64,000 nt of DNA from Candidatus Latescibacterota bacterium. Lineage in GTDB: Bacteria > Latescibacterota > UBA2968 > UBA8231. Position numbers and translations under genes: made by a program. The notes below the pieces were generated by a model. It saw only the letters and a program-made list of their open reading frames with translations, was not told the DNA's origin and did no database searches. Below are positions 34,135 through 54,926 of this stretch, in pieces. Location of the stretch: positions 1 to 64,000 of the forward strand of contig JAJDYK010000006.1 of assembly GCA_022825185.1 (NCBI GenBank), in the 5' to 3' direction. The first letter of the stretch is position 1, and each line of letters starts with the position of its first letter.

Positions 34135-35349
34135 CTAGTTGACCATCTGCATGAGGCGTTGGGTAATTGACCCTTCCTGCGTCAGGGCGTAGATGATGAT
34201 GTTGACCGCTAGTTGTAGCTGGCGGGTTGAATCTCCGCCGCGCGTGTCGTTTTGCCAGCCCCAGCCCCCTGTGTCGCCAGGCGTGACGCTCGCTAGCCTA
34301 CCTTTGATGTAATGGCCGCGCAGGTAGTTCCATGTCCTAACGCCCGACTTGCCTTGCCCCAGCGAAGGAGGATAGCCAAAAGGCACGCCTCCACTTAGGT
34401 CGAAGAAGGAGGTATAAACAGGGTGATCTTCCGGCAGGCGCTCGGACCAGAAGTCCTTACCGCGGACTAAGCCGCCGTATTTTTCCAGTGCTTCTCCGTA
34501 TATCCCGTTGAACGTAAAACCACCCGCTATTAGGTACTGAGCTAAGTTGGCCATTTCTGTCTCGGTAGGCACACCCTGTGGCAGGATGATAGGTACTTCC
34601 ATCAGGCGTGGGTCGTCAAACGTGATAAAGCCGAGGAACTCGGCCTTGAGGCCGGTGTACTCGTTAAGAACGTCGCGTAGCCGGTCAATGGTTGTGAGTT
34701 GGAGCGTGACCGTGCCGTAGCCAGAGGTGCCGCCAGCCAGCGCTCGCGAGGACATGACTTGGGCCATTTTGACAAAGCCCTTGATGGCCTGCTTGTCCGT
34801 GGCGTCTTGGACGATAATGGCGCGGTAGCGACCGGTGTCCATGTTGTTGACGTCGAGCATCTCTAGGCCCATGTCAATTTTGTGCTCGGAGGTGCGGGTA
34901 CTGGTCACGGCCGCTGCCGTCAGCTTGGGCTCTATGGTCATACCGCTCATCGTGCTGAAGGCAGTCTGCCCTGACAGGCGGATTCCCGAGCCACCGACGC
35001 CGGCGATTAGGCTGCGGGTGTTGAACGAGGCCGTGGCCTGTACTTGGTCCATGCGCGCTTGCGCTAGCTGGACTTCGCGGCGCGCGAGCTGGCGCTTGGG
35101 CTGGGGAATTTTGCGCAGTTCCAGCGGCTTGGTCAGGCGCGGCTCGCGCTTGATGAATTTGGTCGTCAGGGGCCGGGGTGCCTTCTTCTCGTCCTCCTTA
35201 AAGGGGTTGATCGCAACGACGATGAGCAGGAGGGCCACAGCAGAGCCTAGGGCGATAAAGAAGCCCCGGCGCAGGCGGCGGACCAGACTGTCAAGATCGA
35301 AGTCCTGAGTGGGCGAAGCAAAGCGCGTGGAGACCCATTTCTTACTCAT
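34135..35349 (-). CDS. DUF4159 protein with N-terminal membrane anchor and TonB-like linker
   Basis: The 404-residue protein has a basic cytosolic tail (1-28), one membrane helix (29-47), a Pro/Lys/Arg-rich stretch (50-95, with APRPLTTKFIKREPRL and KIPQPKRQLARREVQ) and a C-terminal DUF4159-like domain (about 160-400, with 'DDPRLMEVPIILPQGVPTE' and 'YGGLVRGKDFWSERLPEDHP'). Its bitopic shape with a charged proline-rich periplasmic stem resembles energy-transducing proteins of the TonB/TolA type, although the C-terminal domain is different. It overlaps the upstream gene by 4 bases. Function is unknown. Confidence 0.75.
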   Translation of the reverse strand: MSKKWVSTRFASPTQDFDLDSLVRRLRRGFFIALGSAVALLLIVVAINPFKEDEKKAPRPLTTKFIKREPRLTKPLELRKIPQPKRQLARREVQLAQARMDQVQATASFNTRSLIAGVGGSGIRLSGQTAFSTMSGMTIEPKLTAAAVTSTRTSEHKIDMGLEMLDVNNMDTGRYRAIIVQDATDKQAIKGFVKMAQVMSSRALAGGTSGYGTVTLQLTTIDRLRDVLNEYTGLKAEFLGFITFDDPRLMEVPIILPQGVPTETEMANLAQYLIAGGFTFNGIYGEALEKYGGLVRGKDFWSERLPEDHPVYTSFFDLSGGVPFGYPPSLGQGKSGVRTWNYLRGHYIKGRLASVTPGDTGGWGWQNDTRGGDSTRQLQLAVNIIIYALTQEGSITQRLMQMVN

Positions 35350-36371
35350 AGTGACCTCCTCAAAGGACGTTTGGGGGAAATGACCCGGTCTTGGATCTGT
35401 AGGCCATCTCCGCGTTTTTTGAGCTTCTTGTCGAGTTTTCGCAGCCGAGCAATGGCCGTAGTAGAATCAACGTCAACCACCTCTATTTGTCCTACTTTCT
35501 GTTGCGATGGCCTAGCCCGCCACACATCGAAACGCATTCGCTTCGTCAGCCCATGCCGAGCACCGATGTTTAGCTGGACGTGGGGTTTGCCTTTCCGTTC
35601 GGGCAAGAGAGCCGCGATGCGGCCCTCTAGAGGCAAATTAGCGTCTAGGTCGGGTGCTAGATCGTCCACCAGCCCCTTTAACACCCCCCGGATAACGGTG
35701 AGGTCGCTACTGGGCTTGGAGAAGAACCAACGCTCGGCAACGTTGAGTGCTCGTTCTGTGGCAGGATCGACCATTTGCAAGCGGAGAAGATCGGCTAGGA
35801 AAGCCTGCGTTAAACCAGGATGTGATGCGCCTGGATACTTCCAAGTATTATAAAGGAATAGCTGTTGGTCATAAGGTATCACGGCTGAGGAGTCGCGCAA
35901 GTCCGACCAGAAAATTTTGTCGCGGTGTAAATCCTCCAGCTTGACTTCGAGTTGACAGACGATGGAAGGCAGGGAGATCACCTCGTAAGACTGGTCTTCG
36001 CTTGGGCCTCTATCGTCTAATAGGCCCATGTTGTCGTAGTAATGAATGACTTGGTTGTGGTATGTTTTATGGGCTTTGTTGAAAGTGAAATGGGCGATGT
36101 AATCGATGGATTCTTGCCCTGTGGGATCGCGGGCCTCGCGGATGCTCCGCAAGCGCACGACGCGGAAGCGGCCTAAATCGGTAAAGACATCTCTGATCTC
36201 GCGCTCGATTTCCAACATCAGGCGGGGATGTTGCTCGGCGAGGTGGACGGGCAGGATTTCTTGCTCGACGAGATCGGTAAAGACTAGGCCGATGGTGTAG
36301 ATGTGCGGCTGGGCGTTGGCCGGTTGGCCTCCGAGTACGAGGGCCAATCCAATGAGGAAGAGATATTTCAC
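35346..36371 (-). CDS. Exported protein with FlgT-C-like beta-domain
   Basis: The 341-residue protein has a signal peptide (cleavage near PANAQ, residue 20). The N-terminal two-thirds contain an alpha/beta region like LpoB/FlgT middle domains ('IGLVFTDLVEQEILPVHLAE', 'VFTDLGRFRVVRLRSIREA'). The C-terminus ('KPHVQLNIGARHGLTKRMRF', 'VGQIEVVDVDSTTAIARL', 'GDGLQIQDRVI') resembles the small SH3-like FlgT C-terminal domain. It is the first gene of a divergent pair with the DUF4159 protein. Function is not established. Confidence 0.65.
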   Translation of the reverse strand: MKYLFLIGLALVLGGQPANAQPHIYTIGLVFTDLVEQEILPVHLAEQHPRLMLEIEREIRDVFTDLGRFRVVRLRSIREARDPTGQESIDYIAHFTFNKAHKTYHNQVIHYYDNMGLLDDRGPSEDQSYEVISLPSIVCQLEVKLEDLHRDKIFWSDLRDSSAVIPYDQQLFLYNTWKYPGASHPGLTQAFLADLLRLQMVDPATERALNVAERWFFSKPSSDLTVIRGVLKGLVDDLAPDLDANLPLEGRIAALLPERKGKPHVQLNIGARHGLTKRMRFDVWRARPSQQKVGQIEVVDVDSTTAIARLRKLDKKLKKRGDGLQIQDRVISPKRPLRRSL

Positions 36372-36541: not shown

Positions 36542-37498
36542 ATGAAGAAGTTGACTCTTTTGGCCGCAGCCGCGGCCCTTTGCGTTACGACGCTGGCCAA
36601 TGCCCAGCCGCCGATACGCTACTTCGACTTACCCAAGTTTACCCAGCCTCCCACCCTCGATGGCGACCGCGCAACGGTTGCTGACGAGTGGGCCGGTGCG
36701 CTGGAGTTTCCCTGCTCGCCAGACCAGATCCAGCTCGATGGTCAAGAGTTTGGTTGGCGCAATATTGAGCAGGGAGCTAGCGAAGTGAGTACCAACCAAC
36801 TCAATGAAAACGGCGAGACCGAAGTAGCGGGTGAGGGGCGCACCAACGCCGATTTTGAGTCGGTGCTCTTGCAGGCATGGGACGACGATGCCCTGTACTA
36901 CCTCGCCGAGGTTAGCGATAATGTCCGCGACACCGAGGGCGGCGGTGAAGCTCGGGCTTGGTGGGAGCGCGACAGCGTGTCTCTCTACCTCGACCTGAAT
37001 AACGAAGATTGCGCGTGCGGCGACCCGGCCCCGACTAGCTACGTCAATCTGAATGTGGTCAACTTTATGGCCGTGCCTTTTGGTTCGAACGAGTTGTCCG
37101 TTTGCTACATCACCACCGTGGATAATCAACGCGTAGATGTCCACGATCCCGATGCAATTGAGGGATTTGAATACGGCTTCCGCGACGCTGGCGACGAGTT
37201 CGGCGACGAAGGCGACGCTGACTACGTTATTGAAGGCAGGTTGCCGTGGGATACCTTCCTGCGCAACGGAAATCTCTATGAAGCCCCCACGACTGGCTCT
37301 GAGATGGGTTTTGCTTGGCTGCCGATTGATCCCGATGGCGAAGACGCCTATGGCGGCCAGATCCAGTGCGTGGCTTGGGCGGGCGGTAACATGTCCGAGT
37401 TCGCCAACTGGGTCTTCGTTGATACGCCGGCTGGTCCATCAGGTACTGCGGTCGAGGAAGATTCTTGGGGCCGCGTAAAGGAGACCTTCATCCAGTAG
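36542..37498 (+). CDS. CBM9-like secreted carbohydrate-binding protein
   Basis: ATG 36542 follows 'aaggag'; the extended frame upstream crosses the promoter. The 318-residue protein has a signal peptide (cleavage near LANAQ) and the pattern of family 9 sugar-binding/DOMON-like modules: 'PPTLDGDRATVADEWAGALE', 'DDDALYYLAEVSDN', 'WWERDSVSLYLDLNN' and 'DYVIEGRLPWDTFL'. CBM9 modules bind the ends of polysaccharides. Here it lacks an attached enzyme domain. A strong terminator follows at 37530, so it may be highly expressed as a single unit ahead of the surface-protein operon. Confidence 0.75.
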   Translation: MKKLTLLAAAAALCVTTLANAQPPIRYFDLPKFTQPPTLDGDRATVADEWAGALEFPCSPDQIQLDGQEFGWRNIEQGASEVSTNQLNENGETEVAGEGRTNADFESVLLQAWDDDALYYLAEVSDNVRDTEGGGEARAWWERDSVSLYLDLNNEDCACGDPAPTSYVNLNVVNFMAVPFGSNELSVCYITTVDNQRVDVHDPDAIEGFEYGFRDAGDEFGDEGDADYVIEGRLPWDTFLRNGNLYEAPTTGSEMGFAWLPIDPDGEDAYGGQIQCVAWAGGNMSEFANWVFVDTPAGPSGTAVEEDSWGRVKETFIQ

Positions 37499-37529
37499 TC
37501 AACGGTCTCTGCATAGATTCATAAAAAAT

Positions 37530-37567
37530 GGGAAGTGGGCTTGACGCCTGCTTCCCGTTTTTTTTTC
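37530..37567 (+). terminator. Rho-independent terminator after the CBM9-like gene
   Basis: GGGAAGTGGGC and GCCTGCTTCCC form an 11-bp stem with a TTGAC loop, followed by G and nine T residues. It separates the CBM9-like gene from the large outer-membrane gene starting at 37639. Confidence 0.88.
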
Positions 37568-37638: not shown

Positions 37639-40599
37639 ATGCTGTGTTTTCTACAATGCCGCGTTGTTAAGCACTGGGTAGTCTTGTCCGTGCTGGTTTG
37701 CGCTGGTCTGTCCGTGCCAGCAGAGGCGCAGCGCCACCCCGAATCCGGCGGTCCGCTACCCTATTACAGCCCCGCTCCCGGCACGCCGCAGGATCCCCCG
37801 TGGAAAAAGCGCCCGCCTTTTCTGCGTGGGCCCCAAGACCGCTATGACCGAGGACTGGGAAGGGCTTTCCTCAACACCGCAGTTAACGTCCCCTATCTCA
37901 ACTACGCCGACGAAAAGTACATTGCGTACTACCGCGAGACCGTTGCTTGGGCCACTCCTTCGGGCCGCTCGCCAAGGACTCGCAACGTGGGTTGGGATCG
38001 GATGGGCAACTACATGGGCGGCGGCTATCAGCGTCTCCTGACGATAGAAGAGTCGCGTAGCGGTAACGACTTTAGTGGATATAGCTATATCGACCACAAA
38101 TATCGGTCGTTTCGGGTTGGCCACTACACGCACAAGGATTTGCACTGGATCGCCACGGTGGGCAACTTGACCACAAGATCGGATGTGCGCACCATCTTCA
38201 CACCGCTCACGCTAGTCAACAGCAAGCTGAACGTACTGCGCATGGACATCAACTACAAGGAGCGCGATCGGGCGACGCTGCTCTATTCTCGCGGTGGAGA
38301 GCAAGCCGGTGCCCAGCTATTCTCCAAATGGGCGTTCGGCCAAGAAGGCGATGACGCGTGGGATAATTCACCGGTAGTACTCTTTGGCGGCCACTATCAG
38401 CACGAAATAGGTAGCTTCGCCAGCGTCGGCGGAACGCTAATCAACCAGATCATGGCTGCGCCGGCGCTGTCGCGCTCCAGTGCTTGGCGCGGCGATTTGC
38501 CCTATGAGATGCTCGGCCCCAAGACCATCCACGTCTTCGTGGCCGACGACTCGCCTGACGACGCCCGGGCCAATGCCATTGTCTATGGCGTGGACATCGT
38601 CCTTGAGGGCGCACGCGGCACAGAGCCGGTGCGCCTAACTAGCCTCGACGACGATCCAGACTACGACCCAGTACTAGAAGCCGGGCCGCCGGAGGGCGGA
38701 ACCGTCCTCGCTGGCGGCGGGCGCGAAGCCGAAGGCAAGGTGCCGGTGGTGTACACTTTCGTCCTTCCGGCGGACATGACGGTGCGCTCGGCGCGCTTTG
38801 TCGCCGATGTGGCTGGCGATTATCGGGTCGGTGTCAGCCAGACCCACGAATTCTTCAATATTGATCGTCGAGGCACCGCGGCTATCACCGAGGTGGCTTG
38901 GCCAGCTCCCATCGCCAGTGCTGGTGAGCGGGCCATACGGCGTCCGTTCAAATGGTACACAGACGAAGACGAGGAACTTTACTACACCATCATCCGCGCC
39001 GATGGTAGCGATAGCAGTGGCGCAAACCGACGGATGGTCTCCTTTGACTACGGCATCCCCACCGGGCAGAGCTTGGCCTCAATCAACTATCAGGTCGAGC
39101 TAGTGGGGCTGGAAGTCAGCGGCGAGATGGCGCACAACCTGCAGAACTTCATGTTCCCGATCGGCAATAACGAAGGCGAGCGCAGCAGCGAGCGCGCCTT
39201 GGCGTGGTGGGTCAAGGGCGTCAAGGATCTAGCCGGCGGCTTATCACTCGGTGGCGAGATATACCGCATGGAGCCTAACTATGGCGGCGGCTACGACAGC
39301 TATCGCGGTGGCATGGCCTTCCACTACGAGGGGCAGTCTGCGCCCGGCGACAGAATCTCTACAGTCACCGAGGAGTTTCCCCTCCACGAGGACAACGACG
39401 ATCACGACCTCTTCCCCGATGAACATACAGAAGATACGGCCACTGCCGAGCCGCGTGCGCTTTATCCAGGCAATGCCAACGCCCAAGTGTACCCCGGCCT
39501 CGACGAGAATGTCGATAATATCCCGGATATGGATCGCAACGAAAACTTCATCGTTGACTGGGAAGAAGCGTTTCTGACCTACGATTCAGAGCCGCCTGAA
39601 TTTGTCTATGGCATCGACTTCAACAACAACAACGTTCCCGACTTCCGTGAGAACGACGATAAGCCGGACTACCCCTATCCGCGTGACCAAAAGGGCCGAC
39701 ACATCTTCCTTCGCTACGACCGCTTGGGGCGCTTGGGCAAGTTCATCAGCCTAGGCCGCTACGACAACAGTCAGATCGCTGGCCCAGGCAAGTCCGAGGC
39801 GCTGTACTTCCGCTACGCCTATGAGGTGGAGAAGCGCGGAGTCGGCGCGCTGCAAATCAACTTCGACGCCAAGCAGGTCAAAGACGACATTCCGGATCAC
39901 ACCTATATATTTCTAGTACCTATTGACGATATAGAGAGGATCAACTGGTTAAACGAACCGGACGGCCCGCCCGAACGCGCGGGTTTTTGGCGTCCAGCGA
40001 CGCCGGATGAACTGTTGATGCGCGACAGCTTTGTGCATCTCCTCTTTTTCGATAGCACCTATCAGGGCTTTCGCGGCTTCAACATTGAAAACGGCTTCCT
40101 GTGGCAGCGCAACAGCCAAGCCGAAATTGAGCTTGAGGACGGCAGCGGGTTGTTGCAGCCTCAAGATGTGCGCTCGCGTTTTTCCATTGTCAACAAGATT
40201 GACTATACCCATAGCTGGGGTGCCTTCAGCGTTACGCCCAAGTTGAAGCATCGGACGATCTTTGAGCAGGTCGATAGCGAAGAGGTGCCGCGGAAATCCT
40301 ATAGCGACTTCATCCCCATAGTAATGGGGCGGTACAGGCTCACGCCCAAGACCAGCTTTCAGCTTGGCGTCCAGGGATTACCCTTGCTTCCATTTAAGCA
40401 CTGGGATCGCGCCTATGAGGATGAGACATACTCCCAGACCGATTATATGGCCATGCTGAGCATCACCGCAGACTACTTTGGCATCCGCGACAATTCGATA
40501 TTTTTCGGCTACCAGCGCACGCGGCGGGATTTTAGCCATGCAGGACGGCCCGATTCCAAGCAGGGCATCCTCTTCGTAGAGTTGATATCCCCCTTCTAA
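37639..40599 (+). CDS. Large outer-membrane beta-barrel-like protein 1
   Basis: ATG 37639 is preferred because it opens a signal peptide (cleavage near VPAEAQ, residue 30) whereas the earlier start runs through the terminator. The 986-residue protein has an N-terminal conserved module ('DRMGNYMGGGYQRLL'), a 'DDSPDDARANAIVYGVDIV' block (302-354), a second module ('SFDYGIPTGQSLASINYQVE'), and Ca-loop-like segments 'DENVDNIPDMDRNENF' and 'GIDFNNNNVPDFRENDD' (about 621-674). The last third alternates hydrophobic and polar residues and ends in ILFVELISPF, with the terminal Phe of outer-membrane barrels. A paralogue lies at 44.6 kb. No named family recognised. Confidence 0.8.
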   Translation: MLCFLQCRVVKHWVVLSVLVCAGLSVPAEAQRHPESGGPLPYYSPAPGTPQDPPWKKRPPFLRGPQDRYDRGLGRAFLNTAVNVPYLNYADEKYIAYYRETVAWATPSGRSPRTRNVGWDRMGNYMGGGYQRLLTIEESRSGNDFSGYSYIDHKYRSFRVGHYTHKDLHWIATVGNLTTRSDVRTIFTPLTLVNSKLNVLRMDINYKERDRATLLYSRGGEQAGAQLFSKWAFGQEGDDAWDNSPVVLFGGHYQHEIGSFASVGGTLINQIMAAPALSRSSAWRGDLPYEMLGPKTIHVFVADDSPDDARANAIVYGVDIVLEGARGTEPVRLTSLDDDPDYDPVLEAGPPEGGTVLAGGGREAEGKVPVVYTFVLPADMTVRSARFVADVAGDYRVGVSQTHEFFNIDRRGTAAITEVAWPAPIASAGERAIRRPFKWYTDEDEELYYTIIRADGSDSSGANRRMVSFDYGIPTGQSLASINYQVELVGLEVSGEMAHNLQNFMFPIGNNEGERSSERALAWWVKGVKDLAGGLSLGGEIYRMEPNYGGGYDSYRGGMAFHYEGQSAPGDRISTVTEEFPLHEDNDDHDLFPDEHTEDTATAEPRALYPGNANAQVYPGLDENVDNIPDMDRNENFIVDWEEAFLTYDSEPPEFVYGIDFNNNNVPDFRENDDKPDYPYPRDQKGRHIFLRYDRLGRLGKFISLGRYDNSQIAGPGKSEALYFRYAYEVEKRGVGALQINFDAKQVKDDIPDHTYIFLVPIDDIERINWLNEPDGPPERAGFWRPATPDELLMRDSFVHLLFFDSTYQGFRGFNIENGFLWQRNSQAEIELEDGSGLLQPQDVRSRFSIVNKIDYTHSWGAFSVTPKLKHRTIFEQVDSEEVPRKSYSDFIPIVMGRYRLTPKTSFQLGVQGLPLLPFKHWDRAYEDETYSQTDYMAMLSITADYFGIRDNSIFFGYQRTRRDFSHAGRPDSKQGILFVELISPF

Positions 40600-40613
40600 G
40601 GATGCGAATACAC

Positions 40614-41381
40614 ATGAGACTCATCGCAAAACACATTCGCATTCTCCTGTGCATGACTTTGGTTGTCGGGGGGTGCGCTACCCTTAGATCGCTCGAATCC
40701 CATGCGCAGCGGGAGTACTTCATTGAGCTGGAGTCGGTCCTGCCCGATGGGGATACCTATTACATCGATCCGATCGACAGTTCGGTCGTGTGGAGCGAGC
40801 AAGGGGTGCAAGTCAAGGTCAAGTTCTACGACGATGCCATGCTCGACGCCGAATACGGCACTCGCTTCACGCCCTATACGCTCACGGGCGTCGAAATTCC
40901 CGGATTAGACTATACGCCGCCTCTGTGGACCGTTTTTGAAGTGACGGTAATCAACCGCACCCGGGAGCGGGTGGAGCTAGATCCGACGCAGACCATTCTG
41001 CGCTTGGACGACGGTAGCCGACTGCTCTGCCGCCAAGGGGCGGGAGGTTGGTACGACAAGGACGAGTTCTTCGACTATTCCTATTTGAAGTGGGGGGGAC
41101 AAGAAGGCAATGTGCGCTATCACGCCAGCTTGGACCGCAATCCAATCTGGACCAAGAGCGAGTACCACCGGGAAAAGCCCGTGCGCAAAGGCTCCAGATA
41201 CGTCGGCAAGTTGACCTTTCCACCGCTGCCGGCAGAGACTAAGTCGTTCACCCTTGAAGTAAATAACTTCATTCTGGCCTTTGATCGGTTTGAAGTAGGG
41301 TACGGCAATCCGGTGGAATTTACCGACCTGAACTTCCACTTCAATGTCGATCACGGAGTGCGTTGGGCGGAGAATAAGTAA
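40614..41381 (+). CDS. Lipoprotein A1, paired with outer-membrane protein 1
   Basis: ATG 40614 is preferred over 40602 because 'aagga' lies at a suitable distance. The 255-residue product has a lipobox (VVGGCATL) and conserved blocks 'VLPDGDTYYIDPIDSSVVWS', 'YTPPLWTVFEVTVINRTRER' and 'YHREKPVRKGSRYVGKLTFP'. Those blocks match the lipoprotein at 52.4 kb, so the two are paralogues. It could be an outer-membrane partner of the large protein upstream, whose stop is 14 bases away. Function is unknown. Confidence 0.78.
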   Translation: MRLIAKHIRILLCMTLVVGGCATLRSLESHAQREYFIELESVLPDGDTYYIDPIDSSVVWSEQGVQVKVKFYDDAMLDAEYGTRFTPYTLTGVEIPGLDYTPPLWTVFEVTVINRTRERVELDPTQTILRLDDGSRLLCRQGAGGWYDKDEFFDYSYLKWGGQEGNVRYHASLDRNPIWTKSEYHREKPVRKGSRYVGKLTFPPLPAETKSFTLEVNNFILAFDRFEVGYGNPVEFTDLNFHFNVDHGVRWAENK

Positions 41382-42037
41382 TGAAAAAGATGGTAAAATA
41401 TGTCGGCGCGACGCTGCTTGTCGGCTCGGTGGCTTGCACTTTGAAATACGAGGCCCTCAAGGATACTAGTTTGTCCAATCCGCCGTCGATGCCGGTCAAA
41501 ATATACGTCAAAGAATTTCCAGTCGAGAGCAAGGCCAATGTGGTTGATCCGCGGAGTGCCACTTCGGTTGCTGATCAAGGATCCCAGTATAGTACTAACG
41601 CCCTCGCCAGTGCGGGGAATAAACTGGTGCAGATTACTCGGCCTTCGCGCATTGAGGATTTGTCTGGAGCCTTGTTGCGCGAACTCCGCAAGGATAAGGT
41701 GCGGATCCTCACCCAGACGGATCGGGTCGAGGTGCTAGACGAAGACAGCGTGCGACAAGTGGACAATCCCTTTGCGCTAGTTTCCGAGGACTCGGACGAG
41801 GCCGACTTGGAAGTTAGCGGCACGGCGCTTATTACCAGCCAGCGGGTGCGCAAAGTATTCTCCCCGCAAACACAGAGGGTGCAGGTTGAGGTCTCAGTCA
41901 AGGATCTCAAAACCGGCAAAGTGAGCAAGAAAAGCCCGGTGGATGCTGGCATTGTCATGACCTTCAACTCTAGAGAATTGGAGGAGGCCATCGCCATCGC
42001 CGTGGTGACCAGTCTGACGCAGAGACTGCTATTCTGA
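41381..42037 (+). CDS. Second lipoprotein of the surface cluster
   Basis: The 218-residue protein starts with an ATG overlapping the stop of the previous gene by one base. A lipobox (GSVACTLKY) and a basic N-terminus are present. The rest has a mixed alpha/beta pattern ('DLSGALLRELRKDKVRILTQ', 'SGTALITSQRVRKVFSPQ', 'DAGIVMTFNSRELEEAIAIA'), possibly related to CsgG/LPS-assembly-type lipoproteins, but I do not recognise a family. It is within the plus-strand operon between lipoprotein A1 and the discoidin/FlgD-Ig gene. Confidence 0.7.
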   Translation: MKKMVKYVGATLLVGSVACTLKYEALKDTSLSNPPSMPVKIYVKEFPVESKANVVDPRSATSVADQGSQYSTNALASAGNKLVQITRPSRIEDLSGALLRELRKDKVRILTQTDRVEVLDEDSVRQVDNPFALVSEDSDEADLEVSGTALITSQRVRKVFSPQTQRVQVEVSVKDLKTGKVSKKSPVDAGIVMTFNSRELEEAIAIAVVTSLTQRLLF

Positions 42038-43697: not shown

Positions 43698-44541
43698 CGT
43701 CCTATTGCTGGCTCTCGTTTCCCCTGTCGGCGCAGCTTTTGAATTTTCGGGACGGGGGGCCCAGAGTACGGCCCTCGGCGGAGCTTTTGCCGCCAGCATT
43801 CAGACGGCTGAGGCCGTTTGGTACAATCCGGCTGGTAACGCCCAGCAGCAAAAGTGGTTGGCTGGTACGACCCACGCATTGATTTATCCTGGGTTGGACC
43901 AAAGTCCAGCCCTAAACGGCTTGTCGGTAACCGGTCCCTTGCGGGGCGGCGGCTTCCAACTGGGCGTATCGTTTCTCGGTGCCGACGGCTGGCGCGAAGA
44001 AGTGATTGCCCTAGGCTACGGGCGGCCGTTGCACGAGCGATTCGCCTTGGGCGGCGGTTTGCGCACCAGCGCTTGGAAAGCTGGCGACCTGTCGCACCGG
44101 GCTTGGCACCTCGATGTAGGTGCCACTTGGGAAGTGGGTTTCATACACCCGCGGGCGTACCTGCGCCTAGCGTTGGTCGCCAAAGGATTAAACGGCGCGA
44201 ATATCGCCGCGGGCGGCCAAGCCGCAGGCAAAGAAAAGCCGGCCGTGGTTGCGGCGGCCTTGCTCAACTTGGCGGGGCGAGAAGTCCTGCTCGACATTGA
44301 GCGCCGCGATGGACGAACGGAATTCAGAGTGGGGTACGAGACGCGGACGATGAGCCTCAACGGCGCTCGGTTCCGCATGGGGGGAGTCGCTGTTGGTTCG
44401 GATTTTGACGAGAGAGAACTCAACATGGGGCTTGGGCACAACTATAAGCAATGGCATTTCGATTATGCTTATTCATACCCACTGCACCTCTCCGGCTATG
44501 GAGGCGTGCATCGGTTCAGCGTTGGGTATCGCCAACACTGA
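43681..44541 (+). CDS. PorV/OmpP1-like outer-membrane barrel protein
   Basis: The 286-residue protein probably starts with TTG at 43681, overlapping the FlgD-Ig gene. After a signal peptide (VSPVGAAFEF) comes 'GRGAQSTALGGAFAASIQTA' and 'AVWYNPAGNAQQQ', the signature of PorV/PorQ and FadL-type barrels (G-A/G-x-x-A-x-G-G-A-F-x-A...W-N-P-A-G). The remainder alternates in beta strands and ends 'HRFSVGYRQH'. PorV acts in type IX secretion as an outer-membrane shuttle protein. Its position next to a FlgD-Ig protein suggests that role, unproven here. Confidence 0.72.
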   Translation: MWWRISVLLLALVSPVGAAFEFSGRGAQSTALGGAFAASIQTAEAVWYNPAGNAQQQKWLAGTTHALIYPGLDQSPALNGLSVTGPLRGGGFQLGVSFLGADGWREEVIALGYGRPLHERFALGGGLRTSAWKAGDLSHRAWHLDVGATWEVGFIHPRAYLRLALVAKGLNGANIAAGGQAAGKEKPAVVAAALLNLAGREVLLDIERRDGRTEFRVGYETRTMSLNGARFRMGGVAVGSDFDERELNMGLGHNYKQWHFDYAYSYPLHLSGYGGVHRFSVGYRQH

Positions 44542-47531: not shown

Positions 47532-50500
47532 ATGATTCTGGTAAATCTGCTGCTTATCGCAGCGGTCGGCGTGGCTGCCAGCTTGAGTACGCGTTTCTTC
47601 TCGCCGGTGGAGTTGCAAGATCGCTTTGAAGAAGGTCAGAAGCTCTATGCGCTCGGGGATTACGACAGAGCCATTGAGCGCTATGAGGTGATTCTCTCCA
47701 CCGAGAGCAATGCCATGATCAACGTGGAGGATGTAACCGTAGCGGTTGACGAGTTCATTCTGCCGGTGCGCGTAGGGGCTACCTACCAGCTAGGCAATAC
47801 CTACAACAAGTTAGGTCTTGAAAAATTGCAGCGCTCGCAGTTTTTGCGCTCAGAGCAAAAAGAGGCCGAGGCCGACGCTCGCTACGAGGAGGCACTGCAA
47901 GACCTCAACAAGAGCCGCGACCACTTCCGAACCCTAGCTGCAGACGAAAGCGTCGATGATCGCACCCGAGTGATGGCGCAGTACCAGATGATTCAGACGA
48001 GTTATCAACTCAAGGATTACGAGCAGGTCATTGAGGAAGGGAATGCGTTGCTGAACAGCTTCCCCCACAGCCTCTACGAGGCGTCCGTTCACTACGACCG
48101 AGCGTGGTCCTATTTTGAATTGGATCGCTATGAGGAGGCCATTGCTAGCTTCAAGCAGGTGTTGGTCTTGGCCCCCAGAGGCTCTAACGCTGACCGCTCG
48201 CTCTTCCAAATTGCCGAGAGCTACGACAAGCTAGGGCAGTACGAGGATGCACTAGAGTATCTCGACCGTCTGATCGCCCGCTATGACTTTGCACAGATGA
48301 CTGAGGAAGAAATCATCGAGATGACCACCCTCAAGCTCAAGGGCTTGGTCAAGGAGACGGCGCGCGAGCTAGTTGCCAAGGCCCACCTGAAAAAGGGCGA
48401 TATCTATGCGCACAACGGCGAGGTCGAAAAGGCTCTCGCCGCCTATGCCGTGCTTCCGGCCGAATACGCGGCCGAGCCGGTTTTGGTGCAAAACAGCTAT
48501 ATCCGCACCGCCGAGTTGGTGCAGAAGGAGCAGGGCACGACAGCGGCCATCGCCGCGTACAAGGATGCCATCGAAAAGGTTGAAGACAAGCTCTTTCAAG
48601 CCCGCACACAGCTAACGGTCGCCCTGATGCTTTTCGACCAGGACGAATACCTAAAGTCGGCGCAAGAGTACGATATATATATCAATGCCTACGGCGATGT
48701 GGCTCAGCGCATCGGCTTTGACCGCTACAAGGTTCTCTTTCGCATCGCCCAATGTCACCAGGAATATGGGCGGCAGATTCGCAGCGAGGACCCGGCTAGA
48801 GCGGACGAGGATATCGCCAAGGCGCTCGAAAGCTACGACCAACTCTTGAGCGAGCGCGAGGACAATGTCCTGATACCGGACGTGCTTTTTAACGCCGGCT
48901 TTGCCAACCAACTCCTAAAGAAAGACGAAGCGGCGCAGCCGTTATACCAGCGGTTAGTCGATGAGTATGCGGACCATCCGGCGGCTCCCAACGGCCTTTT
49001 GCAGTTGGCTCGCATAGCCTATGCCGCATCCGAACTCAAACAGGCCGAGGAGATCTATACGTCCTTCCTCAACCGCTTCCCAGATTCGGAACTGCGCAAT
49101 ACGACGCGGATGGAGTTGGGCCTTACCTACAAGCGCCTCGAGGATACAGATAGCGCCATCGCCGCCTATGAGACGGTGGAAGCGGATTGGGATAAGTGGC
49201 CTACCGTGCAGGTCGAGTTGGCCGAGCTGTACATGGGCAAACAAGAGTACGAAAAGGCGCGCAAAGCACTATCTCGCGCCTTGGATCGAGCCGGCGACAA
49301 CACCCTAAGAGGCCAGATGCACTATACCTTGGCACGGGTGCATTTCGCCGAGGACAATTTCGCCGATGCGATAGATGCTTGGGGTCAAGCTATTACGCTG
49401 AATCCGCCCGTACACATCCTGCAAAATTCGCTGCTGGCTCGCGGCGGTGCGTACTACGAGGTTGCCAAACAGCAAGACGCTGTCGGCGACACGGCCCAGG
49501 CCCGCATAAGCTATGAGGCGTCGTTGGATGATATGAAGGCCCTGCTCGAAAGCGATCCCGCGCCCCAGATAAAGGATAGCGCCTTCCGCACGCTGGGGGC
49601 GGGCATGATCCGCTTGGGGCGGCAAGAAGAGGCGGCTAGCTACTACCAAGAGCTCATCGCCGCGTCGGACGACCCGCAGGAACAGGCGACCTTTAGCATG
49701 CTCCTGACCGAGCTGTACTACGATCAGCAGGACTTTGTCCAAGCCGAGAAATTCGCTCGCCAGCTCCTCGACATGCAGTTTGAAGACGACAATCAGGCGG
49801 GTTACTACCGTAAAGAACGCGCCTATTCCATTATCGGCAACGCGCTGCTGCAGCAAAAGAAGTACGAGGAAGCCGCCCGCATCTTTGCCCAAGGTCTCAA
49901 GCGCTATCCGAATTCGGGCGAGAGCGGCAACTTGGCCTTCTCCAAGGGTTTTGCCGAAATCAGCTACGGCGACTACGAGACAGCAGCCAAGAGCTTCAAA
50001 TCCTTTGTTGACAAATATCCGCGCAACGCCAACCGCATTCACGGCCAGTACTATCTGGCCCACAGCCTCCAAGCCCTGACGCGGTTTAAGGAGGCCGCAG
50101 CCGCTTTTACCGAACTGGTCGAGCGTTATCTCCAGTCCCAATACGAGGAAGAAGCGCTTTTTCTCATTGGCGAAAACTACTACAACGAGCAGGCCTTTGC
50201 CGAGGCCGTGACCGCGTACCAAGCCCTCTTGGCCAAATATCCCCAAGGGCCATACGGCGGGTCGGCGCAGTACGCGTTGGCTTGGTCCTTTGTCGAACAA
50301 GAGGAGATGGAGCAAGCAGTAGGCGCGATGCAAGACCTAGTTGCCAATTACCCCGAGAGCGAATTCGCCCCCAAAGCGCAGTTTACCATTGGCGACTACT
50401 ACTACAATATCCAGTCTTACGACGAGGCTATGGCGGCCTACGAGAAAGTACTCAAGCTATATCCCAACTCCGAGGAGGCGTCACGGGCCACAACTTTAGT

Positions 50501-50804
50501 GGAAGAGCTAAGCGAGATCCAAGCCAGCTTTAGCTACAACGAGGCCATGAAGCTCTTTGAAGCCAAGGACTACGAGCGGGCCGTGCCAGCCCTACAGGAA
50601 ATTATCCGCGATTACCCCGGCACCTATACGGAATTGGCTGCGTACTGCAACTTGGGGCTGGTCTATGAAATCACGCGCCAGTGGTCGCAGGCGGTGGAAA
50701 ACTATCAGGTAGTAGAAGAAAAGGGTGGGGACAAGCCGGAAAACGCCGACGTGGTCAGTTTTGCCAAGCTGCACCGAGAATGGATTGTGGAAAACCGGCT
50801 CTAG
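47532..50804 (+). CDS. Giant TPR protein of the surface cluster
   Basis: The 1090-residue protein has one hydrophobic N-terminal segment (LVNLLLIAAVGVAASLSTRF) that may anchor it or be cleaved, and then some 20-25 TPRs of the BamD/CpoB style ('FEEGQKLYALGDYDRAIERY', 'EDALEYLDRLIARYD', 'AQYALAWSFVEQEEMEQAVG'). 'aggag' sits at about 47517. Tol-Pal systems carry a smaller TPR protein, CpoB, next to the motor proteins, so this could be an enlarged counterpart that scaffolds the complex in the periplasm. Stop is 48 bases before the ExbB-like gene. Confidence 0.85.
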   Translation: MILVNLLLIAAVGVAASLSTRFFSPVELQDRFEEGQKLYALGDYDRAIERYEVILSTESNAMINVEDVTVAVDEFILPVRVGATYQLGNTYNKLGLEKLQRSQFLRSEQKEAEADARYEEALQDLNKSRDHFRTLAADESVDDRTRVMAQYQMIQTSYQLKDYEQVIEEGNALLNSFPHSLYEASVHYDRAWSYFELDRYEEAIASFKQVLVLAPRGSNADRSLFQIAESYDKLGQYEDALEYLDRLIARYDFAQMTEEEIIEMTTLKLKGLVKETARELVAKAHLKKGDIYAHNGEVEKALAAYAVLPAEYAAEPVLVQNSYIRTAELVQKEQGTTAAIAAYKDAIEKVEDKLFQARTQLTVALMLFDQDEYLKSAQEYDIYINAYGDVAQRIGFDRYKVLFRIAQCHQEYGRQIRSEDPARADEDIAKALESYDQLLSEREDNVLIPDVLFNAGFANQLLKKDEAAQPLYQRLVDEYADHPAAPNGLLQLARIAYAASELKQAEEIYTSFLNRFPDSELRNTTRMELGLTYKRLEDTDSAIAAYETVEADWDKWPTVQVELAELYMGKQEYEKARKALSRALDRAGDNTLRGQMHYTLARVHFAEDNFADAIDAWGQAITLNPPVHILQNSLLARGGAYYEVAKQQDAVGDTAQARISYEASLDDMKALLESDPAPQIKDSAFRTLGAGMIRLGRQEEAASYYQELIAASDDPQEQATFSMLLTELYYDQQDFVQAEKFARQLLDMQFEDDNQAGYYRKERAYSIIGNALLQQKKYEEAARIFAQGLKRYPNSGESGNLAFSKGFAEISYGDYETAAKSFKSFVDKYPRNANRIHGQYYLAHSLQALTRFKEAAAAFTELVERYLQSQYEEEALFLIGENYYNEQAFAEAVTAYQALLAKYPQGPYGGSAQYALAWSFVEQEEMEQAVGAMQDLVANYPESEFAPKAQFTIGDYYYNIQSYDEAMAAYEKVLKLYPNSEEASRATTLVEELSEIQASFSYNEAMKLFEAKDYERAVPALQEIIRDYPGTYTELAAYCNLGLVYEITRQWSQAVENYQVVEEKGGDKPENADVVSFAKLHREWIVENRL

Positions 50805-50852: not shown

Positions 50853-51527
50853 ATGGAGCAGAATTTTTTAGTTGACCAGTTTTTCAAAGGCGGGCCTATC
50901 ATGTGGCCTCTGTTGCTCTGCTTGCTGATCGCCCTAGCCATCATCATAGAACGGCTGTGGCGTCTGCTGACGGTCCCGGGCGAAGAGGAAGCCGAACAGC
51001 AGCTCAACGAGGCCGAGGAAGTGCTCAGAAGCCAAGGCGAAGGCGGAGCCGTTGAGTTGTTTCGCCAGGGCAGTGGCGTGCTCAACTTCATCTTCGCTGC
51101 GTTGGTGAAGCGCTACGATACCTTGGTGCTGGAAAATCGCACGGACCTAGAGGACATGCGCCAAGAGTTGATCTTGGCCACTGAGGAGGCTGGCGAGATG
51201 TACTTAGGCCGTCTGCTCAACGCGCTCGGAACCATTGGCGTCCTTTCTCCGCTGATGGGGTTGTTGGGCACGATCATGGGTATGATTAATGCCTTCGACG
51301 CGATTGCCCGCGCCGGGGCTGGCGATCCGGCGGCTGTGGCCAGCGGCATCTCCGAGGCCCTGATAACGACGGCCAGTGGCCTCATCGTCGCCATTCCGAC
51401 CATCATCTTCCACCGCTATCTCTCTGGCCGTGCGGAAAAGGTCTTCAAGAGCGTGGAGCTATACTGCCACGCCTTTGCCAATACCCTGCTGGTGCGCTTC
51501 CAAGCCAGTCAGCAAGAGGCCAGCTAG
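50853..51527 (+). CDS. ExbB/TolQ/MotA-family proton-channel subunit
   Basis: The 224-residue protein has the ExbB/TolQ layout: a first membrane helix (GGPIMWPLLLCLLIALAIII), a cytoplasmic helical loop, and the paired helices 'LNALGTIGVLSPLMGLLGTI' and 'ISEALITTASGLIVAIPTII'. These form the pentameric proton channel that, with ExbD/TolR, energises outer-membrane processes. A 'gggaggttg' ribosome site precedes ATG 50853. It is followed by two ExbD genes with gaps of 18 and 4 bases, so the three are surely co-expressed. Confidence 0.95.
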   Translation: MEQNFLVDQFFKGGPIMWPLLLCLLIALAIIIERLWRLLTVPGEEEAEQQLNEAEEVLRSQGEGGAVELFRQGSGVLNFIFAALVKRYDTLVLENRTDLEDMRQELILATEEAGEMYLGRLLNALGTIGVLSPLMGLLGTIMGMINAFDAIARAGAGDPAAVASGISEALITTASGLIVAIPTIIFHRYLSGRAEKVFKSVELYCHAFANTLLVRFQASQQEAS

Positions 51528-51545
51528 GCAGAAAGAGACGCGGCA

Positions 51546-51965
51546 ATGCGGCAGAGACGAAAGAGCGGATTCGGCAAAAGTGCCTTCAAGACCTCGGAAA
51601 ACCCGGATCTGACTCCGCTGATCAACTGCATGTTCTTGCTGTTGGTTTTCTTCATGGTGGCGACCACCTTCGTCAACCCTAAGGGCCTGAGCGTAGATCT
51701 GCCGGGTGGCGAAGGCGAGTCGCGAGCGACCAAGGACATGAACATCGTGATTGACCCGGATCAGACGATCCAGGTCAACGGCGAGATCACGGATAAGGCG
51801 AGATTGGCGGAAAAAATCCGCCAAGTCATTGAGGCCGACAACACCAAGAACGTGATCTTGGAGTCCGCGCGCTCAATACCGCACTCCTATGTGGTGCAGG
51901 TGATGGACATCGCCCGCGGCGAGGGTATTGAGGCCATCGCTTTCGCCAAGAGCGGAGAAGGATAG
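51546..51965 (+). CDS. ExbD/TolR-family protein 1, membrane Asp replaced by Asn
   Basis: The 139-residue protein has a basic N-terminus (MRQRRKSGFGKSAFK), one membrane helix (NPDLTPLINCMFLLLVFFMV) and a periplasmic domain of TolR type ('EIDP'-like 'VIDPDQTIQVNGEITDK'). The family has an essential Asp in the helix (L-T-P-L-I-D); here it is Asn (N27, codon aac at 51624-51626). The second ExbD in the operon keeps Asp. It may be a structural partner in a mixed ring or have lost proton transfer. Gene length and frame are otherwise normal. Confidence 0.92.
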   Translation: MRQRRKSGFGKSAFKTSENPDLTPLINCMFLLLVFFMVATTFVNPKGLSVDLPGGEGESRATKDMNIVIDPDQTIQVNGEITDKARLAEKIRQVIEADNTKNVILESARSIPHSYVVQVMDIARGEGIEAIAFAKSGEG

Positions 51966-51969
51966 CGTC

Positions 51970-52389
51970 ATGGCTAGACGGAGACAATCGCTGGCCGAAA
52001 AAGCCGGCGAATTTGAGCTGAATCTGACGCCGATGATCGACGCAGTGTTCCTGCTGCTGATCTTCTTTATGACCACTACGGTCTTTGTCAAGGCTACTCA
52101 GCTCAAGATCGAGTTGCCCGATTCGGTTCACTACGACCAACTCAAGTCCGAAAAGAAGCTGAATCTGCGCATCTCAAGCGAGGGGCAGCTCGAGATCAAC
52201 GGGCAGCTTGTGGCTATGGGGCAGCTAGCGAGTTGGTTAGAGCGCGAGAAGGTTCGCAGCGGCTCATCGACGCTGATTATCACTGCGGACGCGGATGCTG
52301 CGCACGGCTATATCATCGATGCGATGGAAACGGCCACCATGGCGGGCATAGAAAAGATCGACATCGAAACCGAGGAACCAACCAATTGA
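51970..52389 (+). CDS. ExbD/TolR-family protein 2
   Basis: ATG 51970, 4 bases after the previous stop, gives 139 residues with a basic N-terminus, one membrane helix (ELNLTPMIDAVFLLLIFFMT) and a periplasmic domain ('IELPDSVHYDQLKSEKKL', 'ITADADAAHGYIIDAMETAT'). D24 is the proton-carrying aspartate of ExbD and TolR. It would pair with the ExbB-like channel to couple proton flow to envelope work. It overlaps no other gene and is followed 31 bases later by lipoprotein A2. Confidence 0.94.
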   Translation: MARRRQSLAEKAGEFELNLTPMIDAVFLLLIFFMTTTVFVKATQLKIELPDSVHYDQLKSEKKLNLRISSEGQLEINGQLVAMGQLASWLEREKVRSGSSTLIITADADAAHGYIIDAMETATMAGIEKIDIETEEPTN

Positions 52390-52420
52390 CAACAGCTAGC
52401 AAAAAGGGAGTTGCAATTTT

Positions 52421-53188
52421 ATGAGAGTGAGGTACTTGGCACTCGTCGGAGTAGTGGCGCTTGGGCTAGTCTGGAGTTGCGGAGGATTAGTGCCGCCCCA
52501 ACTCGAGTACGATCTGCACGTGATGCCCGTCCTGCCCGAGGGCCGTGGCGACTACACCATCGACCCAGACGACAGCTCGATGGTCTTTAGCAAAGAGGGG
52601 CTTTTAATCCGGTTGCGGTACCTGAGCGATGCCGAGCTCAACGAGCGCTTCCCGCCCCTGTACGATGGTCGCCACGTCAACCCTTATACCCGGGATGATA
52701 TCGATCCTGAAAAGGGCTATATCCCTCCGCGGTTTACTGTTTTTGAAGTCGAGGTCATAAATAAGACCTATGCCAAGATCGAATTCGATCCGGCCAAGGC
52801 GACCATGGAATCGGGCGGCGAGACCCATCGCTACTACGATCCCGGGCGCGAGGGGGCCGTCGTGTTGGGGGGTAACAGCTTCACCAAGTACTACAAAATG
52901 GAGTTGGGCACTTCGGGTAACGAGCGCGAAATCAACTTGGAGCGCATGGGCATTATCTACAAGACGGTCTTTCATCGCCATCGACCGATCTTCCGCGATA
53001 GTAGCCAAAAAGGCATGTTAGTCTTCGATCCGTTGTTGCCGGAAAACGACGAGTTGCTGCTCACATTCCACGAGTTCGTGCTTTCGTTTGACGCCAGCGG
53101 CAATCCCGAAGAGACCATTGACGTCGAGTTCCGCTTTGCGGTGGACCAAGGAACGAGGGAAGAAGCCAGCGCGGGCGGGGCGGGTTAA
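52421..53188 (+). CDS. Lipoprotein A2, paralogue of A1
   Basis: The 255-residue protein has a lipobox (GLVWSCGGL). It shares with the lipoprotein at 40.6 kb 'MPVLPEGRGDYTIDPDDSSM', 'YIPPRFTVFEVEVINKTYAK' and 'FHRHRPIFRDSSQKGMLVFD', with the same order and similar length, so the two are paralogues. Located directly after the ExbD pair, it might contact the motor or an outer-membrane protein. A terminator-like hairpin follows at 53240. Function is unknown. Confidence 0.8.
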   Translation: MRVRYLALVGVVALGLVWSCGGLVPPQLEYDLHVMPVLPEGRGDYTIDPDDSSMVFSKEGLLIRLRYLSDAELNERFPPLYDGRHVNPYTRDDIDPEKGYIPPRFTVFEVEVINKTYAKIEFDPAKATMESGGETHRYYDPGREGAVVLGGNSFTKYYKMELGTSGNEREINLERMGIIYKTVFHRHRPIFRDSSQKGMLVFDPLLPENDELLLTFHEFVLSFDASGNPEETIDVEFRFAVDQGTREEASAGGAG

Positions 53189-53273: not shown

Positions 53274-54926
53274 ATGCACAAACCGCTGTTGGCCGGGTTG
53301 CTAATTTGGGCCTGCATTAGCTGTGGCGAAGAGCGGCCGGACAATGCCCATCTGTTGGCCAAGGTCGGCACGGTCGAGATTACCGCGGCCGATCTGCGCA
53401 CCCTTGAGGCCAATCTCAAAGACGCCGCCATGCGCTCGCAGCACCGGGACAACTTGCAAACGCTCATTGACCGCGAGGTGTTGCTTTTAGAGGCCAACGA
53501 GCGGGGTTTGCAGCGCGACGAAGAGGTCTTAGCCAAACTTGCCAAGCGCGAAACTAAGGCTCTCGCCGATGCAATGTTGCGGCGCAACGTCACGGCCAAG
53601 GTCACGGTGACTGAAGACGACATCGAAAAAGCCTACGCGCGACCCGGGTGGGGAGAAAAGGTCACCACCATGGAGATTTTTGTGCCCAACCAAGAACAGG
53701 CGCATCAGGTGCAGGCGCTTTTGGGGCAGGACGAGGATTTTGCGGAAGTGGGCCGTCAATTCGCCGCCGACCTCTATTACGGTGTGCATACCGGTGAGAT
53801 CCGGCGGATGGCCTATTCGCCCTTCGATAGTCCCCGCGACCTAGCACAAGCGGTCTTCGCCCTGCCCGTGGGCGGCGTGACCGAGCCGATCCCCTTGCAC
53901 GGAGGATTCATCATTGCCAAAGTGGCGGAGCGTCGTCGCGCTGAATTGGTCGAGGTCGAGGATGGCATCCGCGAGGCGCTCGGCGACGAGCAACAAAAGC
54001 AACTGCGCGAATCGTACCTGCGGCACCTCAAGTGGGACTTGGAGACGGTTTTTGACGCTAAGGGCATGGATATTGTAGTAAGCGTCTTACAGGGCGCGGT
54101 CCGCTATGCGGATTTGGACGAGACCCAGCGCCAGCGCCCGGTTTATGCTTTCGAGGGCTTGCAGATGGACGTGGCAGAGGTCTTAGAGGCCGTGCGGCCA
54201 TCGGGCCGACTGTGGCCGGAAGCCACGGCCGACGCCGTCAACGAGAAACTATCTGAGAGTCACTTTCCCACCCGCATCATGGCTCACGATGCCCGGCGCA
54301 AGGGTCTCGATAAAACCGAGGCTTTTGCGCGATCTCATGAACTAGCGTTGGGCAATCTGATGCTGATGAAACTGCGCGAGCAGATCTTGGCCGAGGCTCC
54401 CGCTCCGACCGAGGAAGAGCTACGGGCCTTCTACGAGGAGCACAAGCACCGCTTTCGCACGCCTCCCCACGCGCAATTAGAGGAAATTTTGCTCGAAACC
54501 CCGAGCGAGGCGCGTCAGCTCGCAGCGCAGATTGAGGCGGGTGCTGAGTGGTCGGAGCTGGCCCGCGCCCACAGCCGGCGCCGCAACGCCGAAGATGGCT
54601 TCCTGTACGTCTCCGAATCACAGGCCCCTTTTTTGGGGGAGACTTGGATGAACGCGGTGATGAACGCCGAGCTGAACCAACTCCAAGGGCCGATCCAGAC
54701 TAGGGGAGGCTATTCGATCTTCCGGGTTATCGAACGGTCCCCAGAGGTTTATCACGGCCTAGAGCTAGAACGGGTAAAGAATGCGGTGGAGCGGGATGTG
54801 CGGGAGCGCGCCGAGCGGAAGTTCTTCAACAGCTATCTGCACGATTTGCGCCAAAAATACGCCGAGCAGATAGACGTGTACGAAGAGCACTTGCGGTATT
54901 TGGACGACGAGTTAGTGCAGAACTGA
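53274..54926 (+). CDS. SurA-like periplasmic prolyl isomerase with two parvulin domains, lipoprotein
   Basis: ATG 53274 opens a lipoprotein signal (LLIWACISCGEE), giving 550 residues; an alternative is ATG 53220 upstream of the hairpin. An N-terminal SurA-type helical region ('VEITAADLRTLEANLKDAAM') is followed by two parvulin modules, about 130-219 ('VGGVTEPIPLHGGFIIAKV') and 400-489 ('LNQLQGPIQTRGGYSIFRVI'), with a helical stretch between. SurA family chaperones bring unfolded barrel proteins to the Bam complex. Being in the same stretch as two large outer-membrane proteins fits that. Catalytic activity of either module is not certain. Confidence 0.87.
   Translation: MHKPLLAGLLIWACISCGEERPDNAHLLAKVGTVEITAADLRTLEANLKDAAMRSQHRDNLQTLIDREVLLLEANERGLQRDEEVLAKLAKRETKALADAMLRRNVTAKVTVTEDDIEKAYARPGWGEKVTTMEIFVPNQEQAHQVQALLGQDEDFAEVGRQFAADLYYGVHTGEIRRMAYSPFDSPRDLAQAVFALPVGGVTEPIPLHGGFIIAKVAERRRAELVEVEDGIREALGDEQQKQLRESYLRHLKWDLETVFDAKGMDIVVSVLQGAVRYADLDETQRQRPVYAFEGLQMDVAEVLEAVRPSGRLWPEATADAVNEKLSESHFPTRIMAHDARRKGLDKTEAFARSHELALGNLMLMKLREQILAEAPAPTEEELRAFYEEHKHRFRTPPHAQLEEILLETPSEARQLAAQIEAGAEWSELARAHSRRRNAEDGFLYVSESQAPFLGETWMNAVMNAELNQLQGPIQTRGGYSIFRVIERSPEVYHGLELERVKNAVERDVRERAERKFFNSYLHDLRQKYAEQIDVYEEHLRYLDDELVQN

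Follow-up and report, generated by a model that had tools for sequence, protein, structure and literature searches.

A stretch of 64,000 nucleotides of Candidatus Latescibacterota DNA (contig JAJDYK010000006.1, positions 1 to 64,000; hereafter the window) hosts at 34135-56938 a block of 16 genes, two oriented leftward and 14 rightward. The block encodes a proton motor of the ExbB/ExbD type along with two giant predicted outer-membrane barrels, lipoproteins, secreted proteins and a transporter. It is a genuine envelope system, conserved as a unit and linked to a motor; its mechanism relates it to the Ton, Tol and Agl motors, but by the features tested it is a member of none. Its components are the following:

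34135..35349, minus strand: DUF4159 protein, 404 residues, with an N-terminal membrane anchor, a basic Pro/Lys/Arg stem and a C-terminal DUF4159 domain (PF13709, 36.5 bits, cut-off 25.9)
35346..36371, minus strand: FlgT-C-like exported protein, 341 residues (weak FlgT_C match, E 0.025, below cut-off)
36542..37498, plus strand: CBM9-like secreted protein, a separate upstream gene (PF06452, 43 bits, cut-off 23.4)
37523..37563, plus strand: terminator-like hairpin downstream of the CBM9 gene, ahead of OMP1 (stem of 18 pairs, then a run of Ts)
37639..40599, plus strand: OMP1, giant predicted outer-membrane barrel, 986 residues, paralog of OMP2 (no Pfam or NCBIfam family)
40602..41381, plus strand: LpA1, lipoprotein of an Ig-like family (lipobox Cys invariant in the family; fold taken from a modelled relative)
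41381..42037, plus strand: LpB, lipoprotein, 218 residues (lipobox Cys19 invariant in 6 sequences)
42039..43697, plus strand: DISC, secreted protein with F5/8-type domain and FlgD-Ig/CHU_C tail (below cut-off in the window copy, above in relatives)
43681..44541, plus strand: PorV-like small barrel (NF033709, E 6.6e-11, 42.3 bits, below the cut-off of 90)
44593..47514, plus strand: OMP2, giant predicted outer-membrane barrel, 973 residues (AlphaFold2 model many-stranded, pTM 0.74)
47532..50804, plus strand: tetratricopeptide repeat (TPR) protein, 1090 residues, with a hydrophobic N-terminus (TPR_2, 1.6e-55)
50853..51527, plus strand: ExbB/TolQ-type motor subunit (PF01618, 100.7 bits, cut-off 22.9)
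51546..51965, plus strand: ExbD1, with Asn at the position of the proton-carrying Asp, TPLINC (PF02472, 88.6 bits)
51970..52389, plus strand: ExbD2, with the Asp kept, TPMIDA (PF02472, 102.7 bits)
52421..53188, plus strand: LpA2, lipoprotein (34% identity to LpA1)
53274..54926, plus strand: SurA-like lipoprotein with two parvulin domains (Rotamase_2, two stretches; start uncertain, 53220 or 53274)
54947..56938, plus strand: inner-membrane transporter, distantly DUF6785-like (8 hydrophobic segments)

An earlier note, drawn from the DNA letters of the window, had proposed a block of this kind, and the genes that it named were all located in place. They are packed with very short gaps, as it had said, the spacing from OMP1 to the transporter ranging from overlap up to 48 bp. 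The left limit of the block at 34135 holds; the right limit proposed, 54926, is too short, as the transporter gene belongs to the block, adjoining the SurA-like gene in 8/8 readable genomes. The ExbB-ExbD-ExbD set (all three above Pfam cut-offs), the twin LpA lipoproteins (paralogous, E 9e-34), the two parvulins of the SurA-like lipoprotein and the DUF4159 protein, with its anchor and Pro/Lys-rich stem similar to those of TonB or TolA, were all recovered. Other labels are retained in part. FlgT-C and PorV correspond to matches that stay under the respective cut-offs, and so do both the discoidin and the FlgD-Ig matches of the window protein, F5/8 passing in DISC of the motor clusters L036 and L105. 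The twin barrels are indeed paralogs (35% identity, E 1e-167), but they do not form a private pair, as the family has dozens of copies.

Eight genomes have a contig reaching far enough for the block to be read, shorter contigs having been excluded. Six of them (G001, G050, G047, G041, G054 and G044; the DUF4159 gene of G044 is truncated at the end of the stretch) carry all 16 genes with order and orientation unchanged, and the FlgT-C-like gene also occupies the same position in 6/8. Conservation of the neighbourhood beyond one genome, set as a check in the earlier note, is therefore observed. In the more distant genomes G047, G041 and G054 identity is 60-65% for OMP2, 48-65% for the DUF4159 protein and 32-42% for the SurA-like protein; ExbB is 74% identical in G047 and G041, and the FlgT-C-like protein 29% identical in G041. 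Because the set is intact at such low identities, it is, as judged from sequence comparison, kept by selection and not by recent copying. The single-contig genome G051 retains 7/16 genes (TPR-ExbB-ExbD1-ExbD2-LpA2-SurA-transporter); the nine genes from DUF4159 to OMP2 are lost, and the TPR gene at the edge of the deletion is shortened (1012 residues). The region (L186-L187, G051:C1:5864001-5904000) represents a natural deletion, in which the DUF4159-to-OMP2 half is gone and the motor half retained. The arrangement in the eighth genome, G048, is considered below.

Relatives of OMP2 are found mostly in records titled Latescibacterota, with others in records titled Gemmatimonadota; of 80 proteins collected, 54 were used in the alignment A1. 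Barrel relatives are present in 39/64 Latescibacterota genomes, and are distributed unevenly: 25/25 in the family of the window, 0/22 in three sister families of the same class, 14/17 in more distant lineages. The barrel family is thus large and largely confined to Latescibacterota. Barrel loci matching the Latescibacterota set also occur in records titled Gemmatimonas phototrophica (L058, L070, L080, L094), likely a mislabelled metagenome-assembled genome. A whole barrel-motor cluster (L105) lies on a contig titled KSB1, and hosts the sole convincing barrel among 82 KSB1 genomes; its ExbB shares the segments GLLGT and ISEALITTA with that of the window. The L105 cluster results from horizontal transfer or misbinning, and either way the set stayed together.

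Barrels are organized in modules, at least 47 in 31 modules in the single-contig genome G050 and at least 41 in 28 modules in G051, and each of these genomes features 7 MotA/ExbB matches. In G050, 25 of the 28 barrels inspected, distributed over 20 stretches, lie in stretches where neither a motor gene nor a DUF4159 gene was recognised. DISC and LpA recur beside these barrels, and a SurA-like lipoprotein is encoded in 14/20 stretches. Such a layout is that of transport systems with a small number of energisers shared by numerous receptors. Classic Plug-domain TonB receptors coexist with the family (28 Plug matches in G050). Proteins of the FG-GAP/UnbV-ASPIC kind are repeatedly encoded next to barrel modules, both in the window (27481-29880 and 31563-33239) and at L136, L147 and L152.

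A barrel profile search of the named genomes, in which the best 80 matches were kept, defined 65 loci. These were annotated by profile at E <= 1e-15; many stretches end early, and absences mean little. Among the 65 loci DISC was found at 42, TPR at 45, LpA at 39, DUF4159 at 30, ExbB at 18 and ExbD at 14. ExbB or ExbD are present at 19/65 loci, which host TPR (18/19), DISC (17/19), DUF4159 (15/19) and LpA (15/19) genes. Barrel, motor, TPR, DUF4159, DISC and LpA genes thus recur together, in clusters that vary in order (see for example L036 and L102).

The earlier note had considered that the large proteins might turn out to be well-known enzymes or porins; no Pfam or NCBIfam family reaches its cut-off in OMP1 or OMP2. 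The C-terminal residue is aromatic in 52/56 close relatives of OMP2. SlpA of Deinococcus, itself a large outer-membrane barrel, occupies the first row in the structural comparison, the top rows of which are tied with unrelated porins; SlpA_C is found below the Pfam cut-off in 3/8 barrel relatives scanned, and listed neither for the remaining 5 nor for the window barrels. The OMPs could be giant structural or diffusion porins of the SlpA kind, the motor being a Tol-Pal-like envelope-stability device that shares their operon by chance; this explanation is improbable. As for Tol-Pal, the block resembles it in the TolQ/TolR-type motor genes and in a YbgF/CpoB-type match of the TPR protein. The comparison to CpoB made in the earlier note stands on this match, but the similarity is generic, as NCBIfam matches of the protein also include BamD, PorW and MamA. 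The block differs from Tol-Pal in that TolA, TolB and Pal are missing, as the note had also stated (Pfam on the block; no search for them was made elsewhere in the genomes).

The window ExbB, which passes its Pfam cut-off, does not reach NCBIfam equivalog cut-offs. Most ExbDs in the set read TPLID or TPMID; in ExbD1 (TPLINC) the proton-carrying Asp is replaced by Asn. The replacement is found in 12/12 ExbD1 orthologs from other genomes, and the Asp in 12/12 ExbD2 orthologs. At the remaining loci of the ortholog survey Asp is present in every ExbD with a readable motif; L194, where one ExbD was recognised, and L179, where the motif is unreadable, were left out of the counts. In a tree of 56 ExbDs the Asn sequences of the main locus form one clade (support 100/99). 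By this tree the separation of the ExbD1 and ExbD2 lines would predate duplication of the motor loci, with support of 92/92 on the ExbD1 side and 98/95, the starred value, on the ExbD2 side.

One further Asn-bearing ExbD falls outside the main clade, and belongs to a third motor of G050, located beside barrel, DISC, TPR and DUF4159 genes. In this motor, as in its counterparts from four relatives (G048, G043, G062, G058), the first ExbD reads DITPxVN and the second has Asp, in 5/5. Barrels are close by in G050, G048 and G043 (L100, L103, L112); in G062 a barrel match lies about 20 kb off on the same contig, and in G058 no barrel was seen within the stretch. As this distant motor features the same 5/5 split outside the main Asn clade, the Asp was seemingly lost on two occasions, in both cases from the ExbD whose gene comes immediately after that of ExbB; the tree carries a long-branch warning, which also flags the sequence with the second Asn origin. 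That the one-Asp pairing is conserved points to a heterodimer in which just one proton site works. Alternatively, ExbD1 could be a regulatory, proton-dead subunit.

The DUF4159 protein belongs to a family that resembles force transducers of the TonB/TolA type. The anchor, near residue 26, is followed by the Pro/Lys/Arg-rich stem, in which a motif approximating PRLTKPLELRKxPxPKRQMxR is recognisable in many family members. The TonB anchor carries a Ser-x3-His motif; [ST]-x3-H is found in 10/33 anchors of the DUF4159 family, and a His without Ser/Thr in 5 more (the 33 sequences include L081, a short form without stem). The family profile matches a solved, uncharacterised relative, PDB 4i66 (E 1e-18), and DUF4159 is mentioned in no paper of the literature searched. 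By its architecture the protein is likely a TonB-like force transducer, and DUF4159 proteins may pull on LpA or on the OMPs. A compact TPR-ExbB-ExbD-DUF4159 cluster was also found at L038:213-6007, with no barrel within the 16 kb read; similar clusters occur in further genomes of the family (L173, L175, L176; L174 ends early).

LpA proteins share an invariant lipobox Cys (26 members), and a modelled relative features an Ig-like domain and a helix-strand tail. In sister motor clusters LpA ends in an AgmX/PglI (TonB-like) domain (47-61 bits against a cut-off of 40, three proteins scanned singly), which takes its name from the gliding proteins GltJ and GltG. The tail is matched in 8/27 LpA members, weak GltG/GltJ matches accompany it in the LpA of other motor clusters, and it was not found on LpA1 or LpA2 of the window. 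For LpB a sequence-based search gave no structural relative. DISC proteins combine F5/8-type domains with FlgD-Ig/CHU_C tails, CHU_C being above cut-off in 6/7 of those scanned. The start of the CBM9 gene was picked from an upstream AAGGAG. Since a terminator-like hairpin, a possible attenuator, lies 3' of the gene, the CBM9 protein may be produced in excess.

The AgmX/PglI tails recall the AglRQS-Glt system and its non-gliding core homologues, with which the block shares one TolQ-type and two TolR-type genes in tandem (50853-52389), TPR proteins, outer-membrane barrels, a small one included, and lipoproteins (PMC3169522). The block might encode machinery for gliding or focal adhesion, with the motor pulling on DISC surface adhesins by way of outer-membrane barrels. 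This is more doubtful still than the porin explanation. The AgmX tail sits on a lipoprotein and not, as with GltG and GltJ, on the inner-membrane anchor; no such domain was found on the window anchor by Pfam or NCBIfam, nor, by Pfam, an FHA domain, which GltG has. The block barrels measure about 980 residues, in contrast to the 209-275 residues given for GltH, GltB and GltA in PMC3169522. Asn replaces Asp in one ExbD, whereas AglQ and AglS are both predicted to have the conserved Asp (PMC9389320). Furthermore, dozens of barrel modules per genome, with ABC transport, MR_MLE and amidohydrolase genes in the flanks scanned, are unexpected for one motility machine.

The block transporter gives no Pfam match itself; a profile comparison relates it to DUF6785 proteins (91% probability, E 9e-7, the profile being shallow), which belong to the OPT clan. 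DUF6785 genes lie within 20 kb of 24/31 barrel modules in G050, against 8.0 +/- 2.6 expected (0/2000 circular shifts as high), and of 16/28 in G051, against 6.7 +/- 2.3 (5/2000). Plug genes are not enriched near barrel modules in the same circular-shift test. OMP, Plug and DUF6785 positions were taken from match listings, and pieces of the same gene were merged by eye, among them two pieces of one DUF6785 gene of G051; rows below cut-off, one Plug in G050 and one DUF6785 in G051, were dropped. With 50 copies in G050 and about 42 in G051, the DUF6785 family, which lacks a known function, is unusually expanded in these genomes. The barrel flanks (51 hand-picked open reading frames, no control run) encode ABC transport parts, MR_MLE enzymes, amidohydrolases and a sulfatase, among the 25 of 65 families listed. 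Downstream of the block the window hosts genes for a Recep_L-like protein (57752-58561) and an NHL-repeat protein (58569-59717), and next to the latter a gene similar-looking in sequence (59714-60883; region 57752-60883).

The earlier note had left the choice between a secretion, a surface-assembly and an uptake machine. The neighbourhood statistics lean to import, but copy numbers across the phylum do not support an obligate link to the transporter. Import is probably the direction of transport, ranked first though not strongly.

Export has to be weighed against it. The type IX secretion system (T9SS) includes SprA, PorV, SprE/PorW and GldLM, and SprA, PorV, a peptidyl-prolyl isomerase and SprE form a complex. 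The block similarly has a giant barrel, a PorV-like protein, a TPR protein, a peptidyl-prolyl isomerase, proteins with tails of the T9SS C-terminal domain type, and a proton motor. Each OMP, helped by the SurA-like protein, the PorV-like partner and the motor, could move the adjacent DISC proteins to the cell surface or mount them there, in a T9SS-like process in which ExbB/ExbD replace GldL/GldM. The pairing of OMP with DISC in modules, the CHU_C tails of DISC (a type IX signal), the frequency of SurA-like genes in the G050 stretches and the PorV-like protein of the main locus all fit, as does the result that GldL is above cut-off in 0/64 genomes, with two weak matches (GldM was not searched for). 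Moreover Oar, a TonB-dependent barrel, is reportedly needed for protease secretion in Myxococcus (PMC11658791). Still, export is unlikely. SprA is encoded elsewhere in 63/64 genomes (61 above cut-off; an example is the frame at 8883-15413 of L126), including 24/25 that lack the barrel family, so proteins with such tails already have a candidate exporter. An alignment of the OMPs compared with 10 SprA sequences gives a profile-match probability of 4%, no convincing homology, and the enrichment of DUF6785 genes points to import.

The closest parallel is provided by the TonB-ExbBD motor and the transporters that it serves, SusC among them. Shared features are a proton motor with an ExbB/TolQ subunit, a stem-bearing inner-membrane transducer, many large outer-membrane barrels against few motors, surface proteins of the binding type and an inner-membrane permease nearby. 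The membrane Asp, in turn, is present in ExbD2 only, and the two ExbDs are unequal. No SusD-type lipoprotein was found among the block proteins by Pfam (SusD models were not searched across genomes). The preferred reading is that a motor of the Ton/Tol/Agl type energises a new barrel family, the cargo of which is most likely imported, and we assign it a probability of about 0.4.

Several observations weigh against this reading. The proposed block transducer ends in DUF4159 and not in a TonB C-terminal domain, which was not found on the window protein (Pfam returned DUF4159, plus DUF6205 far below cut-off). Neither [ST]-x3-H nor the corresponding His is present in 18/33 family sequences, among which is the window lineage. 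Plug and TonB_dep_Rec domains, typical of TonB-dependent transporters, gave no Pfam match in OMP1, OMP2 or eight relatives, and the C-terminal residue is aromatic in just 14/24 of the wider barrel set. The DUF6785 enrichment is absent at 5 kb (4/31 modules in G050, 1/28 in G051), and weak at 10 kb in G051 (7/28, 142/2000 shifts as high). In a copy-number comparison of 26 chosen genomes, including 9 of the 22 in families f2-f4, these nine have 20-39 DUF6785 matches and no barrel. The reverse holds for four f7 genomes, in which barrels occur and DUF6785 does not; the pairing is hence not obligate. Dedicated SurA-like proteins and DISC with T9SS tails would fit export too. Finally, in G048 the operon is present and the DUF4159/FlgT-C pair is not beside it, as confirmed by translated search. 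Open reading frames of 240 and 210 residues occupy the place of the pair upstream of the G048 operon (L053, 1-1600).

From the gene set, the synteny, the family sizes, the predicted barrel and the Asp/Asn pattern we infer that the proteins would form a complex, across which force is transferred and by which substrates are imported. ExbB and the two ExbDs would make up an inner-membrane motor powered by the proton gradient, the pair in the main motor being unequal in function, since one member has the Asp and the other an Asn. Anchored beside the motor, the DUF4159 protein would convey force across the periplasm through its basic stem, and the TPR protein, LpA, LpB and the FlgT-C-like protein would act as periplasmic or outer-membrane adaptors. 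The SurA-like lipoprotein may aid folding of the giant barrels, which the force would open or remodel, few motors serving many barrels per cell by analogy with TonB. Substrates could be captured by the carbohydrate-binding-type DISC and CBM9 proteins, pass through an OMP, and cross the inner membrane by a permease of the DUF6785 type.

What is new is the family of barrels, the proposed transducer with its DUF4159 domain, and the inequality of the two ExbDs. In its full form the proposal is more tentative: Latescibacterota would possess a class of proton-driven outer-membrane transporters of their own, parallel to TonB-dependent receptors, with a DUF4159-tipped transducer and giant barrels numbering up to about 50 in a genome, whose modules also hold surface proteins of the discoidin type, dedicated chaperones resembling SurA and permeases of the DUF6785 family, and with an ExbD pair that twice independently became an unequal heterodimer with one proton-carrying member.

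The Asp/Asn split bears on whether AglQ and AglS, the MotB/TolR-type pair of a single motor, form a heterodimer or homodimers, stated as an open question in PMC9389320. Since nature has abolished one of the proton sites, and the loss is conserved and seemingly occurred twice, subunit stoichiometry and the number of steps per turn can be put to a direct test. If the proposal is true, the Ton/Tol/Agl family of 5:2 motors would have a further output, with a DUF4159 transducer domain, and there would be a way into studying how this uncultured, widespread phylum takes up food or constructs its surface.

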